Shown here: piece after piece, positions 39,286 through 53,894 of the stretch
How the letters are laid out: every line of letters begins with the position of its first letter
How positions within the stretch are numbered: position 1 is the stretch's first letter
Origin: Pantoea phytobeneficialis
Lineage (GTDB): Bacteria > Pseudomonadota > Gammaproteobacteria > Enterobacterales > Enterobacteriaceae
DNA: 64,000 bases
Direction: 5' to 3'
Assembly: GCF_009728735.1 (NCBI RefSeq)
Contig: NZ_CP024636.1
Span: forward strand, 639,686 to 703,685
Made by a program: the position numbers and the translations under genes
Notes under the pieces: model-generated
Seen by the model: the letters and a program-made list of their open reading frames with translations, nothing else
Databases searched by the model: none
What the model was told of the DNA's origin: nothing

Positions 39286-39372
39286 TGGTGCGAAGAGAGG
39301 GACTTGAACCCTCACGTCCGTAAGGACACTAACACCTGAAGCTAGCGCGTCTACCAATTCCGCCACCTTCGC
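39286..39372 (-). tRNA. leuV: tRNA-Leu(CAG), copy 3
   Basis: An 87-base class II tRNA with CCA encoded. The acceptor is GCGAAGG/CTTCGCACCA, the D-loop GAATTGGTAGAC, the anticodon stem-loop CTAGCTTCAGGTGTTAG (anticodon CAG), followed by a long variable arm and T-arm GGTTCAAGTCC. It is the last of three near-identical tandem copies, as in the E. coli leuQPV operon. Symbol assigned by position. Confidence 0.95.
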
Positions 39373-39401
39373 ATCGTAGTTGTCTGTTCATATCACCGCA
39401 T

Positions 39402-39488
39402 TGGTGCGAAGAGAGGGACTTGAACCCTCACGTCCGTAAGAACACTAACACCTGAAGCTAGCGCGTCTACCAATTCCGCCACCTTCGC
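39402..39488 (-). tRNA. leuP: tRNA-Leu(CAG), copy 2
   Basis: Same sequence as copy 3 except for one base in the variable arm (TTCTTACGG rather than TCCTTACGG). 87 bases, anticodon CAG, CCA encoded. 29-base spacer to copy 3. Confidence 0.95.
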
Positions 39489-39520
39489 ATTGTGCAGTGC
39501 GATATGAACTACGTGGTTTT

Positions 39521-39607
39521 TGGTGCGAAGAGAGGGACTTGAACCCTCACGTCCGTAAGGACACTAACACCTGAAGCTAGCGCGTCTACCAATTCCGCCA
39601 CCTTCGC
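39521..39607 (-). tRNA. leuQ: tRNA-Leu(CAG), copy 1
   Basis: First gene of the three-copy operon (transcribed leftward). 87 bases, anticodon CAG, CCA encoded, identical in body to copy 3. A promoter with a GC-rich discriminator lies immediately upstream. Confidence 0.95.
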
Positions 39608-48479: not shown

Positions 48480-49766
48480 TTAATGCGACGCCAGTGCGCG
48501 CAGCGTATTAACCCCTTTCTGCCGTACCAGCAGCGCCAGCAATAGCATTCCCGTCAAAGCCAGTACGCTCGCCAACACAAAGGCGGTGTGATAGCCGCCG
48601 CCGTACTGGATAAGGAAGCCAGTAATCCCCGGTGACAGAATGCCCGCCAGATTCGCCAGCAGATGAACAAACCCGCCTGCCGTACCAATTCGTCCTGCCG
48701 GAACGATATCCTGCAACAATGACCAGCAGGCTTGCGGCGTCATATAAGCAAACACGCTCGCCAGGGTAATCAGGGTGACGGCCGCAGCCAGGCTCTGGCT
48801 CCAGGCGGTCAGCAGCACGCATAACGCGGCGACGGCCAGTCCGACAAAAATCACCAGCTTACGAGACAGCAGGAAATTCTGCGTGCGGCGAAACAGCATG
48901 TCGCACACCACGCCACCACCGAGAAAACCAACGGTGGCACCGAGCCACGGCAGAATACCGATGATGCTCATGCTTTTGATATCCAGATGCTGGAAGTCGG
49001 TCAGGTAACTCGGTAGCCAGGAGAGGAAGAAATACTGGATGTAGTTGAAGCAGAAGAAGGCGCTGGCGACGCCTAACACCGGCAGTGAGAAGACGTAGCG
49101 CCACAGCGAGTGCTGATCCTGCTGCGGGGTGCTGGCGCTCTGGCTGGCCGGACGTTGCTGCATAATCAGCTGACTTTCCTCGCGGCTGACGCGCGGATGC
49201 TGCTCTGGCTTATCACGGAACAGCAGCAGCCAACTGGCGACCCAGATAAAGCCCAGCGCGGCAATCACGATGAAAGCAATACGCCAGCCAAAATTCAGCC
49301 CAACCAGACCAACAATCGGTGCGGCAATGGCTGCACCCAGCGGCTGTCCGGCATTGGTAAAACCGACTGCCCGGCCAACTTCCTGACGCGGGAACCAGTT
49401 AGCAATCGATTTGTTGGTGGTGGTACCCATCGGCCCCTCGCCGATACCAAACAGCATACGCACAATCAACAGATGACCGAAGCCAGTGACCAGCGCGGTG
49501 GCACCGCAAAACAGCGACCAGATCGAAGCCGCCCAGGCATAGACACGACGTGGGCCAAAGCGGTCAGCCCCCCAGCCGCCAAGAAAACAAAACAGGCAAT
49601 AACCAATAAAGAAGCAGCTAAACAGGATGCCCATCTGTGCATCATCAATGCCGAGATCTTTTTTCACCAGTGGCGCCATGACCGACAGTGCGGCGCGATC
49701 GAGATAGTTGAGCATCCCGGCGCAGAACAGCAGCAGGGCAATGACCACACGATAATTTTTAAACAT
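48480..49766 (-). CDS. MFS transporter, ACS family (sugar acid importer type)
   Basis: A 428-residue 12-segment permease of the anion:cation symporter group that includes ExuT, GudP and DgoT. Features are LNYLDRAALSVMAPLVKKDLGIDDAQMGILFSCFFIGY (TM1-2), GGWGADRFGPRRVYAW (TM2-3), and GPMGTTTNKSIANWFPRQEVGRAVGFTNAGQPLGAAIAAP (TM4-5). Its start overlaps the stop of the upstream dehydratase-like gene by 8 bases, so it should import that enzyme's substrate, probably an aldonate or uronate. Confidence 0.85.
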   Translation of the reverse strand: MFKNYRVVIALLLFCAGMLNYLDRAALSVMAPLVKKDLGIDDAQMGILFSCFFIGYCLFCFLGGWGADRFGPRRVYAWAASIWSLFCGATALVTGFGHLLIVRMLFGIGEGPMGTTTNKSIANWFPRQEVGRAVGFTNAGQPLGAAIAAPIVGLVGLNFGWRIAFIVIAALGFIWVASWLLLFRDKPEQHPRVSREESQLIMQQRPASQSASTPQQDQHSLWRYVFSLPVLGVASAFFCFNYIQYFFLSWLPSYLTDFQHLDIKSMSIIGILPWLGATVGFLGGGVVCDMLFRRTQNFLLSRKLVIFVGLAVAALCVLLTAWSQSLAAAVTLITLASVFAYMTPQACWSLLQDIVPAGRIGTAGGFVHLLANLAGILSPGITGFLIQYGGGYHTAFVLASVLALTGMLLLALLVRQKGVNTLRALASH

Positions 49767-50913
49767 GATGCACTCCCTGTTGATCCACCCGTTGATGGGT
49801 TATCCGATACTCGCGTAACACCTGCTCGTCGGGCTGATAACCGAGGCCAGGACGATCGCTCAGGGTAAAGTGCACGTCGTGGGGCAGATCGGGGTAAAGA
49901 TCGACGGCGAAGTCGATCCACGGGATCTCCATTTTGACGCTGTCTGGCAGCAACGCGACCAGATGAGCGGTAGCCAGCATCCCTGCGCCGTAATAGAAGC
50001 AGTGCGGCACCACGCGTACGCGATATTGCTGCGCCAGGTCGAAGACATGCAGGGCGGCGGTGATACCGCCGACTTTGGTGACGCTGGGTTGCACCACATC
50101 GACCGCGCCACTTTCCAGCAGATTGACGAAACCGAAATCACCATCGACGTTTTCACCGGCGGCCAGCGGTACACCGACGCGACGCAACTGCGCCAGACCG
50201 TCAAAATCATCCGGTGGCCAGATCGGCTCCTCCAGCCAGCCCAGCTCCAGCGCACGCAGTTCAAAAGCGTGCTGGCTCGCCTGCGCACGCGTCCACGGAC
50301 AGTTAACGTCCACCATTAACTGCGCGTCAGCAGGTAGTGCAGCACGGGCAGCAGCGATAGCGGGGCTGGCTGTTTCATGCAGCTTCATGGTGCGGAATCC
50401 CTGCTGATAAGCGCGCTGCACCTGGGTGGCGACTTCTTCGGGATCATTGGCGTAGCTTACCAGGCTGGCATAGCGCTCGATCTGATGACGCGTTGCTCCC
50501 AATAGTTGCCACAGCGGTTGCTGGTGCTGCTGGCCGAGCAAATCCCACAAGGCGATATCAAGAGCGGAAAGGGCGTAGCGCACCGGGCCACTGCGGCCAA
50601 ACGCATGCAGAGCCTGCTCGGCGTTCTGCATTAATGACGCGATTGCCGGTTCGCTGTCGGGGAGTGGCTGTTGCAGGAAAAAGGGGGCGACCAGGCTGCA
50701 CAGTGCCTGCTCCGTGACCGGGTTAGCCAGATGCCCGAAGGCTTCTCCCCAACCCACCAGTCCGTTGTCGCTGGTGACTTTAACCAGCAGGGTTTCCATC
50801 CGGCTCAACGACGGCGAGGCCGCGTTAAACGTGGTTTCTTGCTCCGCTGGTGGACGTCGATGAGCATCAAAGGGGATCGCGATGCGCATCACTTCAATCG
50901 TAGATATCTTCAT
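49759..50913 (-). CDS. enolase-superfamily dehydratase/racemase (mandelate racemase subgroup)
   Basis: A 384-residue enzyme: N-terminal capping domain (1-130) and C-terminal (beta/alpha)7beta barrel. Predicted metal ligands are D202, E228 or E229, and E254; the catalytic dyad is D272/H304 with E329. The second-strand base motif reads K177-x-H179, where most MR-type members have K-x-K. Such enzymes dehydrate sugar acids. The start at 50913 (MKISTIEVMR) is preferred. It is co-transcribed with the MFS gene, forming a two-gene sugar-acid unit; the 44-bp tandem array lies directly upstream. Confidence 0.82.
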   Translation of the reverse strand: MKISTIEVMRIAIPFDAHRRPPAEQETTFNAASPSLSRMETLLVKVTSDNGLVGWGEAFGHLANPVTEQALCSLVAPFFLQQPLPDSEPAIASLMQNAEQALHAFGRSGPVRYALSALDIALWDLLGQQHQQPLWQLLGATRHQIERYASLVSYANDPEEVATQVQRAYQQGFRTMKLHETASPAIAAARAALPADAQLMVDVNCPWTRAQASQHAFELRALELGWLEEPIWPPDDFDGLAQLRRVGVPLAAGENVDGDFGFVNLLESGAVDVVQPSVTKVGGITAALHVFDLAQQYRVRVVPHCFYYGAGMLATAHLVALLPDSVKMEIPWIDFAVDLYPDLPHDVHFTLSDRPGLGYQPDEQVLREYRITHQRVDQQGVHHV

Positions 50914-51111
50914 GCCATAGACCTCAAAAGGGTGCGCCCGGCGTGAGTAGTTATGAAAAATGCCGGGACGGATAGGGATACATCGGGTCAATAGCGAGTA
51001 TAAAAAGCAGGCAAAACGGGAACATCGGGCAACAGCCCAGGAGTGAAAGCGGATTCAGGCGGGTTTTTGTGCTGATTAACGGCGCGTGGTGCAGGGGATC
51101 ACAAATATGAT
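50914..51111. promoter_or_regulatory. upstream region of the dehydratase-like gene
   Basis: About 200 bases between the start of the enolase-superfamily gene and the tandem array. It should contain that gene's promoter. No clear operator was seen. Confidence 0.4.
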
Positions 51112-52132
51112 GGAAATATCATAACTGCACGATAAATCGTGCCGCTACGGGTTGGGTAAATATCATCACTGCACGATAAATCGTGCCGCTACGGGTTGGG
51201 CAAATATCATCACTGCACGATAAATCGCGCGGCTACGGGATGGGCAAATATCATCACTGCACGATAAATCGTGCCGCTACGGGTTGGGCAAATATCATCA
51301 CTGCACGATAAATCGTGCCGCTACGGGTTGGGCAAATATCATCACTGCACGATAAATCGTGCCGCTACGGGTTGGGCAAATATCATCACTGCACGATAAA
51401 TCGTGCCGCTACGGGATGGGCAAATATCATCACTGCACGATAAATCGTGCCGCTACGGGATGGGCAAATATCATCACTGCACGATAAATCGTGCCGCTAC
51501 GGGTTGGGCAAATATCATCACTGCACGATAAATCGTGCCGCTACGGGTTGGGCAAATATCATCACTGCACGATAAATCGTGCCGCTACGGGTTGGGTAAA
51601 TATCATCACTGCACGATAAATCGTGCCGCTACGGGTTGGGCAAATATCATCACTGCACGATAAATCGTGCCGCTACGGGTTGGGCAAATATCATCACTGC
51701 ACGATAAATCGTGCCGCTACGGGTTGGGCAAATATCATCACTGCGCGATAAATCGTGCCGCTACGGGTTGGGCAAATATCATCACTGCGCGATAAATCGT
51801 GCCGCTACGGGTTGGGCAAATATCATCACTGCACGATAAATCGTGCCGCTACGGGTTGGGCAAATATCATCACTGCACGATAAATCGCGCGGCTACGGGA
51901 TGGGCAAATATCATCACTGCACGATAAATCGTGCCGCTACGGGTTGGGCAAATATCATCACTGCACGATAAATCGTGCCGCTACGGGTTGGGCAAATATC
52001 ATCACTGCACGATAAGTCGTGCCGCTACGGGTTGGGCAAATATCATCACTGCACGATAAATCGTGCCGCTACGGGTTGGGCAAATATCATCACTGCGCGA
52101 TAAATCGCGCGGCTACGGGATGGGCAAATATC
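51112..52132. repeat. tandem array: about 23 copies of a 44-bp REP-containing unit
   Basis: The palindromic core starts at 51127 and recurs every 44 bases to 52095, about 23 cores in strict head-to-tail order. A typical core is GCACGATAAATCGTGC (7-bp arms around AA), with the head CGCTACGGG and the linker TTGGGCAAATATCATCACT. Variants include GCGCGATAAATCGCGC cores, GGGATGGGC linkers and one AAG centre; many are single-base, and several keep or restore arm pairing. The period is not a multiple of three and no gene spans it. The core belongs to the same family as REP-like elements elsewhere in the window, so the array looks like expansion of one REP plus its flank. Confidence 0.93.
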
Positions 52133-52180
52133 TGTAGCGGCGCGATTTATCGCGCGAGCCGTTTCAGGATTTATCGCGCA
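52133..52180. repeat. inverted REP-like element closing the tandem array
   Basis: GTAGCGGCGCGATTTATCGC (52134-52153) stands in opposite orientation to the array. A partial copy, ATTTATCGCGC, follows at about 52170-52180. The inverse orientation resembles a BIME boundary. Confidence 0.8.
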
Positions 52181-52183
52181 AAA

Positions 52184-52212
52184 AAAAGCGCCGGTTAAGG
52201 CGCCTTTTATTA
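52184..52212 (-). terminator. probable ettA terminator
   Basis: On the minus strand GGCGCC, TTAACC, GGCGC is followed by eight T residues, about 15 bases after the ettA stop. Confidence 0.75.
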
Positions 52213-52226
52213 TCGCGTTAGCGCAA

Positions 52227-53894
52227 TTACTTCGCCATACGCTTGTACTTGATACGCTTCGGCTCCAGCGCTTCTGCGCCGAGGGTGCGTTTTTTGTACT
52301 CTTCGTATTCGGTGAAGTTACCTTCAAAGAACTCCACTTTACCCTCATCCTGGTAATCGATGATGTGGGTAGCGATACGGTCAAGGAACCAACGGTCATG
52401 CGAGATAACCATCGCACAGCCAGGGAATTCCAGCAGGGCGTTTTCCAGGGCGCGCAGGGTTTCGATGTCGAGGTCGTTGGTCGGTTCATCGAGCAGCAAC
52501 AGGTTGCCGCCGACCTGCAACAGTTTCGCCAGGTGCAGACGACCACGCTCACCACCAGACAGCTCGCCCACGCGTTTGCCCTGGTCGGTGCCTTTGAAGT
52601 TAAAGCGACCAACGTAAGCGCGGCTTGGCATTTCGGTGTTGCCGATACGCATGATGTCCTGACCGCCGGAAACTTCTTCCCACACGGTTTTGCTGTTATC
52701 CATCGCATCACGGAACTGATCGACGGACGCCAGTTTCACGGTTTCGCCCAGCTCGATGGTGCCTGAGTCCGGCTGCTCCTGACCGGACATCATACGGAAC
52801 AGGGTAGATTTACCCGCGCCGTTCGGTCCGATAATCCCGACAATCGCGCCTTTCGGCAGCGAGAAGGAGAGATCGTCAATCAGCACGCGATCGCCGTAGG
52901 ATTTACGCAGGTTAGCGACTTCCAACACTTTGTCACCGAGGCGTGCGCCTGGCGGAATAAACAGTTCGTTGGTTTCGTTACGTTTCTGGTATTCGGTGCT
53001 GTTCAGTTCTTCGAAGCGAGCCAGACGGGCTTTGCCCTTCGACTGACGGCCTTTCGCGCCCTGACGCACCCATTCCAGCTCTTTCTCAATGGACTTGCGA
53101 CGTGCCGCTTCGGCAGAGGCTTCCTGCGCCAGACGCTGATCTTTCTGCTCCAGCCAGGAAGAGTAGTTACCTTCCCACGGAATACCCTCGCCACGGTCCA
53201 GTTCCAGAATCCAGCCCGCCACGTTATCGAGGAAGTAGCGGTCGTGGGTGATCGCCACGACAGTACCTTCGAAGTCGTGCAGGAAACGCTCCAGCCAGGC
53301 CACGGATTCTGCATCCAGGTGGTTGGTGGGTTCGTCGAGCAGCAGCATGTCTGGCTTTTCCAGCAGCAGACGGCACAGCGCAACGCGGCGGCGTTCACCA
53401 CCGGACAGGTTAGCGATTTTGGCATCCCACTCTGGCAGACGCATGGCATCCGCCGCACGGTTCAGCTGGGTTTCCAGGTTGTGACCATCATGGGCCTGGA
53501 TCACTTCTTCCAGACGGCCCTGCTCAGCGGCCAGTTTGTCGAAATCGGCATCCGGGTCAGCGTACAGCGCATAAACTTCGTCGAGGCGCTTCAGCGCACC
53601 GACCACTTCAGACACCGCTTCTTCTACGGATTCACGCACGGTGTGTTCCGGGTTGAGTTGCGGTTCCTGCGGCAGATAGCCGACTTTGATACCCGGCTGT
53701 GGGCGGGCTTCCCCTTCGATATCTTTATCGATGCCCGCCATGATACGCAGCAGGGTTGATTTACCCGCACCGTTCAGGCCGAGGACACCAATTTTGGCTC
53801 CAGGGAAAAAGCTGAGAGAGATATTCTTCAGAATATGACGCTTCGGCGGAACCACTTTGCCGACGCGATGCATGCTATAGACGAATTGAGCCAC
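52227..53894 (-). CDS. ettA: energy-dependent translational throttle protein EttA (YjjK)
   Basis: 555-residue ABC-F ATPase that binds the ribosomal E site and gates the first translation elongation step according to ATP/ADP ratio. The two ATPase domains have Walker A GLNGAGKST (about 39-47) and GPNGAGKST (about 356-364), with signatures LSGGERRRVALCRLL and LSGGERGRLHLAKLL. The interdomain linker (about 245-320) carries the charged PtIM region. Monocistronic with its own terminator. Confidence 0.95.
   Translation of the reverse strand: MAQFVYSMHRVGKVVPPKRHILKNISLSFFPGAKIGVLGLNGAGKSTLLRIMAGIDKDIEGEARPQPGIKVGYLPQEPQLNPEHTVRESVEEAVSEVVGALKRLDEVYALYADPDADFDKLAAEQGRLEEVIQAHDGHNLETQLNRAADAMRLPEWDAKIANLSGGERRRVALCRLLLEKPDMLLLDEPTNHLDAESVAWLERFLHDFEGTVVAITHDRYFLDNVAGWILELDRGEGIPWEGNYSSWLEQKDQRLAQEASAEAARRKSIEKELEWVRQGAKGRQSKGKARLARFEELNSTEYQKRNETNELFIPPGARLGDKVLEVANLRKSYGDRVLIDDLSFSLPKGAIVGIIGPNGAGKSTLFRMMSGQEQPDSGTIELGETVKLASVDQFRDAMDNSKTVWEEVSGGQDIMRIGNTEMPSRAYVGRFNFKGTDQGKRVGELSGGERGRLHLAKLLQVGGNLLLLDEPTNDLDIETLRALENALLEFPGCAMVISHDRWFLDRIATHIIDYQDEGKVEFFEGNFTEYEEYKKRTLGAEALEPKRIKYKRMAK

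Follow-up and report, generated by a model that had tools for sequence, protein, structure and literature searches.

Probable origin of a 44-bp head-to-tail REP array of Pantoea phytobeneficialis in one arm of a REP dimer

A head-to-tail array of 23 REP units with a period of 44 bp lies between ettA and a sugar-acid dehydratase-like gene in the window, the 64,000-nucleotide stretch of Pantoea phytobeneficialis DNA that was analysed. The array probably originated when one arm of a REP dimer was amplified locally in tandem, by a microhomology duplication followed by slippage or unequal exchange. It has the appearance of local stuttering within a known repeat family and not of a new system, because related species carry at most two REPs at the junction that here holds 23 units with their neighbouring DNA.

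Structure of the tandem array

Tandem Repeats Finder assigned a 44-bp period to positions 51114-52132, with 23.2 copies, 97% matches and 0% indels. Together with unit-by-unit reading, this defines 23 full units on the minus strand (51114..52125). Each unit, read on the minus strand, is formed of a 22-bp GTAG-tagged REP, GTAGCGGCACGATTTATCGTGC, followed by a 22-bp linker with the consensus AGTGATGATATTTGCCCAACCC. The consensus is present without change in 13 of the 23 units, and the pairwise identity of units has a mean of 0.968 and a minimum of 0.864. All of the array REPs are within three mismatches of the dispersed 22-mer. The linker is nearly constant and the 23 REPs point the same way, as expected from the original prediction that one REP plus its linker had been multiplied head-to-tail. 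A CRISPR was ruled out, since the linkers are nearly identical instead of being different spacers.

The two ends of the array differ. The period continues on the ettA side for seven bases beyond unit 23 as the partial copy GATATTT (minus strand, 52126..52132), whereas it continues for zero bases before unit 1 (P ~0.0004 for random flanks). The GATATTT motif is also found at 51114-51120, at the opposite end of the array. The array is closed by an inverted REP with the exact sequence GTAGCGGCGCGATTTATCGCGC (plus strand, 52134..52155). The REP of unit 23 (minus strand, 52095..52116), which adjoins this inverted copy, forms with it a tail-to-tail dimer that has its GTAG ends inside and a 17-bp spacer. 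Thus, 23 of the 24 REPs of the locus have one direction and one is inverted at one end, which bears out the claim of a strict tandem array with an inverted copy at its end. A core pattern search also identified an incomplete REP core at 52164..52179, which reads GCGCGATAAATCCTGA on the minus strand. With up to two mismatches, the core pattern has 56 matches in the two strands of the window, compared to 0.29 expected from shuffles. Identical variant units are adjacent more than in shuffles (two such pairs, P 0.02); over all unit types, the eight pairs of identical neighbours are at chance level (P 0.36).

A 7-bp hairpin had been predicted for each core. The stem is fully Watson-Crick in 18 of the 23 units, whereas the remaining five contain a G-T pair at stem position 3 (units 15 and 16), A-C at the same position (units 3 and 18) or G-T at the innermost stem pair (unit 21). 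The GCGCGAT/ATCGCGC stem occurs in the array only in unit 23. It is taken as ancestral because the REP pairs of relatives have it, and GCACGAT/ATCGTGC, which fills the rest of the array, would be derived. The proposal that pairing had been restored by compensatory change was given up, as the form in question is confined to unit 23, is shared with relatives and reads as ancestral.

The search of positions 50600-52600 against Rfam found no family above its gathering score, and six lower matches (E 0.012 to 0.33) were taken as chance. The reading frames in the array, which are repeated 42-aa plus-strand frames with GTG starts and one of 59 aa, were judged spurious as candidates for a coding role. 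The same applies to a minus-strand frame of 221 aa (52046-52711), which shares the 3' part of ettA but is read in a different frame.

REP family and cognate RAYT

The genome that contains the window (G000, 5.7 Mb in 5 contigs) has 593 copies of the REP core, 22 of them inside the array, in agreement with the prediction that the core is common to dispersed REP-like elements. REP cores were found in 26 of 61 genomes of the genus. The exact inner-core pairs of G000 with gaps of 16-46 bases comprise 134 head-to-head pairs, 28 tail-to-tail pairs with GTAG inside and 40 head-to-tail pairs. Half of the head-to-tail pairs (20) belong to the 51114-52125 array and six to a second array, described below.

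The array REP is a GTAG tetranucleotide followed by a short palindrome, as is characteristic of GTAG REPs. A search for a RAYT gene, which had been suggested as a check, found one in G000 (C1:3527190-3527639). The gene encodes a 150-aa protein that matches NCBIfam NF047646 with 62.5 bits, below the cut-off of 80, and is bordered on both sides by tail-to-tail pairs of the array-type REP. The Pfam Y1_Tnp search for a transposase gave no match, the 150-aa protein is without any Pfam match, and phmmer found no relative of it with a solved structure. The GTAG and palindrome, the high scattered copy number and the RAYT gene bordered by array-type REPs together place the repeat among RAYT-associated GTAG REPs. 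A GTAG tail and a short stem-loop are also features of the GTAG-tagged REP clusters of Di Nocera and others (2013, PMC3733652), in the main text of which Pantoea is absent.

Relatives of the RAYT are encoded in 11 of the 61 genus genomes at E 1e-10 or better. The four RAYT loci with at least 60% identity adjoin GTAGCGGCGC-type REPs, and the seven with 47-51% identity adjoin GTAGGG-type REPs. This co-variation of RAYT type and REP type makes a good case for a cognate RAYT-REP pair. Many cores are present without a close RAYT in G022 (320 cores) and G034 (220), and G006 combines 407 cores with a RAYT that belongs to the other REP type. The numbers suggest that the RAYT gene may have been lost while its repeats persisted in G022 and G034 and, for the cognate type, in G006. 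The RAYT relative of G023 (L135, G023:C5:605994-609431; 60% identity) contains one in-frame TAA. It adjoins a regular alternating REP array with a period of ~174 bp, unlike the head-to-tail arrays.

The junction in related species and the origin of the array

The 241-bp flank of the array matched 12 of the 61 genus genomes; the match in G050 covers 39 bases only and was left out of the junction reading. Among the genomes read, the array is present at the junction in G000 and in the second strain of the species, G030, and in none of the nine others. The junctions of G034 (locus L014) and G006 contain one tail-to-tail (GTAG-inside) REP dimer each. A single REP is present in the closest other species, G022 (flank match of 95%). 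Six genomes have no REP there (G029, G007, G009, G041, G014 and G042). In the last of these, the junction lacks a core and has ~0.8 kb of additional sequence that contains other frames, where an apparent small gene pair replaces the REP (L120, G042:C1:700500-703500); the second gene of the pair encodes what we take to be a Fic-like motif, HPYREGNGR, read by eye. Around the dehydratase gene, the core is present in 2 of 22 loci (L013 and L014; L013-L034 were read, of 80 fetched). REPs at the ettA/dehydratase junction are so restricted to one branch. By reading, both the ettA terminator-like stem and the leader of the dehydratase gene are kept with or without REPs.

The earlier state of the locus would be a tail-to-tail REP pair, placed between the dehydratase gene and the terminator of ettA. 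In the lineage of the window, the inner spacer AGATATTTGCCC and the outer flank AGTTATGATATTTCC of this pair both contain GATATTT, bracketing one REP at a distance of 44 bp. G034 has GATACTT in the spacer and GATTTTT in the flank, and the window has GATATTT in both. A duplication between the two 7-bp repeats probably produced the initial direct repeat of 44 bp, with its chimeric linker. Such a duplication across one REP would explain both the 44-bp unit and the 7-base overrun of the period. The composition of the linker can be read directly: AGTGAT from the outer flank, GATATTT, and GCCCAACCC from the dimer spacer. The amplified unit is a REP plus 22 bp, as the original prediction had it, with the amendment that outer flank and dimer spacer are joined in a chimeric linker. 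The probable route of the founding duplication is replication slippage eased by hairpins, and later growth may have occurred by slippage or unequal exchange.

A single unit, as folded DNA, has a 6-bp main stem and a 4-base loop and is only weakly better than shuffles (z -1.8). In contrast, REP dimers as single strands fold far beyond shuffles, with z -6.0 for the window and z -8.1 for G034. The dimer is therefore a plausible site for replication to stall. It speaks against the dimer origin that the closest species, G022, has one REP, and the dimer stage would have to be deduced from more distant species. An ordinary satellite at many loci was ruled out, because a 19-base piece across the linker has 22 matches in the genome with up to two mismatches, all within the 51114-52125 array. 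The outcome that was to refute the prediction, an array at many loci without a link to REPs, was thus not observed: the linker is confined to this locus and the core is a REP.

Other head-to-tail arrays and the role of the RAYT

The array of the window (array 1) is not the only one of its kind. The 40 head-to-tail pairs of G000 sit in 13 places, of which seven were read, and the list of arrays is a lower bound, as arrays with variant cores escape the exact-core pattern. Array 2 has a period of 48 bp and contains 10 REPs in G000 and 12 in G030, and G022 has a degenerate REP pair there (by reading); ~20 bp of its linker cannot be derived from either flank. Array 3 (L161:740-1057, equal to G000:C2:384739-385056) has a 47-bp period and six REPs with a variant core, the stem of which is GCGTGAT. 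Its linker resembles, by reading, the dimer spacer joined to the beginning of the inverted arm, suggestive of template switching at half-stems. Array 4, from G023, has a period of 52 bp and eight REPs. Array 5 (L144/L145, 98% alike over 924 bp) has a period of 46 bp, with two REPs in G000 and at least four in G030, where it is at a contig end. A further locus, at 632 kb, has three head-to-tail REPs in one strain and two in the other, and runs of two to three REPs occur elsewhere as well. Copy number thus differs between G000 and G030 at array 2, array 5 and the 632-kb locus, the flanks of which are 94-98% alike; L149/L150, one locus in the two strains, has two head-to-tail REPs in each and shows no difference. 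Linkers and periods (33-55 bp) differ between the arrays read, and the REP alone is common to all of them.

In each of the arrays with at least six units and readable ends (arrays 1, 2, 3 and 4), an inverted REP stands at the tail side and none at the other side. Array 5, which in G030 starts at a contig end, is outside this count. Given 28 tail-to-tail and 134 head-to-head pairs in G000, tail closure of four out of four arrays has a chance probability of 0.0009, for a pattern that was noticed post hoc in four arrays from two species. The short runs L128, L129, L130, L145, L147, L149 and L150, in which L128/L147 and L149/L150 are each one locus in two strains, have no inverted REP on the GTAG side; L130, L149 and L150 have one on the non-GTAG side.

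It is an unlikely possibility that tail-to-tail REP pairs seed head-to-tail arrays via the cognate RAYT, directly or by nicking. If true, RAYT-REP systems would have a second amplification route, with growth in place rather than dispersal. The explicit form of this idea, in which the RAYT nicks beside one REP of a tail-to-tail pair and the head-to-tail copies then arise by rolling-circle-like synthesis, is slightly less probable still. It is in line with the presence in G000 of a RAYT flanked by the array-type REP and with the tail closure of the long arrays despite the excess of head-to-head pairs. In a comparison of the seven genomes with more than 150 cores, arrays of at least four exact cores occur in three of the four genomes with a RAYT of at least 60% identity (G000, G030 and G023, not G042) and in none of the three without such a RAYT (G006, which has a 51% RAYT of the other type, G022 and G034). 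However, the numbers are small, two of the three array genomes belong to one species, the RAYT match of G023 is interrupted by the in-frame TAA, and the exact-core pattern overlooks arrays with variant cores. Furthermore, the break in array 1 is a plain 7-bp microhomology, which requires no enzyme, and the post hoc association with tails is absent from the short runs.

Neighbouring genes and possible selection on the array

The array is flanked by ettA (minus strand, 52227..53894), which encodes the energy-dependent translational throttle ABC-F protein (NF008775, 1010 bits, cut-off 599), and by an enolase-superfamily sugar-acid dehydratase-like gene (minus strand, 49759..50991) with Pfam domains MR_MLE_C and MR_MLE_N, for which every NCBIfam match is under its cut-off. 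The latter coordinates are those of the open reading frame as listed, and relatives keep an ATG at 50913. The leader of the gene (50914..51113, minus strand) is alike in relatives with and without REPs. The dehydratase-like gene is followed by a gene for an MFS transporter (48480..49766, minus strand) related to D-galactonate transporters (TIGR00893, 317 bits, cut-off 395; MFS_1). The intrinsic terminator of ettA was recognized by reading at 52180..52203 (minus strand; stem 52188-52203, with eight T in a row on that strand); in the terminator scan, this stem is placed on the plus strand only. The predicted position of the array, between the ettA terminator and a sugar-acid promoter, is correct with respect to the genes and, by eye, to the terminator, but the promoter scan of 50600-52400 found no promoter-like site. 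Elsewhere in the window (39286-39607), three tRNA-Leu(CAG) genes are arranged in tandem with a spacing of ~117 bp.

The placement between two co-directional units would suit a transcription block, and the array is present in both strains of the species. It could accordingly be imagined as a selected regulatory or structural element, the 24 REPs of which would be bound by gyrase, by a nucleoid protein or by the RAYT, or would block transcription between ettA and the sugar-acid pair. In the consulted portions of the literature, BIME-2 clusters are described as strongly binding gyrase and BIME-1 as interacting with IHF (PMC2817692), and Bertels and Rainey regard ordered tandem REPs as a hint at specific functional roles (PMC3116915). 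A selected array is nevertheless improbable. It is missing from all nine other genomes at the junction, the ettA terminator-like stem and the dehydratase leader are kept regardless of REPs, and the sister arrays share neither linker nor period with it. The IHF consensus has no site in 51001-52230 with up to one mismatch. The array is taken as a by-product of REP biology, and ettA and the sugar-acid genes are probably affected by it slightly at most.

The array in a second strain

Comparing the copy number in another strain, as had been recommended, was possible in part. G030 has the array at the same locus, and its dehydratase-side and ettA-side contigs both end within it. Four full units and 38 bases are visible on the dehydratase side and six full units on the ettA side, its own variants included, so that the G030 array has at least ten full units if the two contig ends do not overlap. 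The first four full units from the dehydratase side have 0, 1, 2 and 0 differences, in order, from those of the window; the ettA-side units agree with the window less regularly. Because G030 has the array at the same locus with matched unit order, it probably predates the divergence of the two strains and is no quirk of one assembly. Its length probably still varies between strains. An assembly artefact with a much lower real copy number is very improbable: the assembly of G030 does break at the locus, but the array of G000 sits inside a 4.33-Mb contig and G030 has units with its own variants at both contig ends.

Relation to known repeats and implications

Variable-number tandem repeats (VNTRs) are composed of head-to-tail units and are used for strain typing. 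The REP arrays resemble them in having head-to-tail units and, at the sister loci (array 2, array 5 and the 632-kb locus), a strain-dependent copy number; the difference is that the unit of the array is a transposase-linked REP. The locus of array 5 (L144/L145) is a likely marker for strain typing, and the Pantoea species of the window has several candidate loci for this use.

As an intergenic tandem REP cluster in a genome with a RAYT gene, the array is similar to BIME-2 of Escherichia coli. However, BIMEs, as presented in the portions seen of PMC2817692 and PMC8266576, alternate or invert the orientation of their REPs, and alternation is not found in the Pantoea array, where 23 of 24 REPs point one way. 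The predicted contrast to the BIME layout therefore stands, but the layout is not unique, as other tandem arrays exist in the genome, in the genus and in print. The constant spacing and the repeated flank identify 51114-52125 as a tandem REP array, in which a REP is reiterated with flanking DNA. This kind of array is already in print: the tandem REPs of Pseudomonas fluorescens SBW25 (Bertels and Rainey 2011, PMC3116915) are, in the excerpt available, evenly spaced REPs of one type at a few loci, accompanied by many dispersed REPs and by RAYT genes, as here. According to the same excerpt, they differ from the Pantoea array in REP family and genus and in that same-type arrays are at two positions. 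It describes no pre-array state in relatives, whereas the Pantoea relatives have candidate states. Among the titles and abstracts listed in the literature search, none mentions this array or describes tandem REPs for Pantoea.

The present analysis adds a probable base-level origin of a tandem REP array and strain variation at its sister loci. The possible steps, from no REP to a REP dimer and to an array with its founding 7-bp repeat, are legible across species and two strains. This legible origin makes the formation of tandem REPs directly testable.
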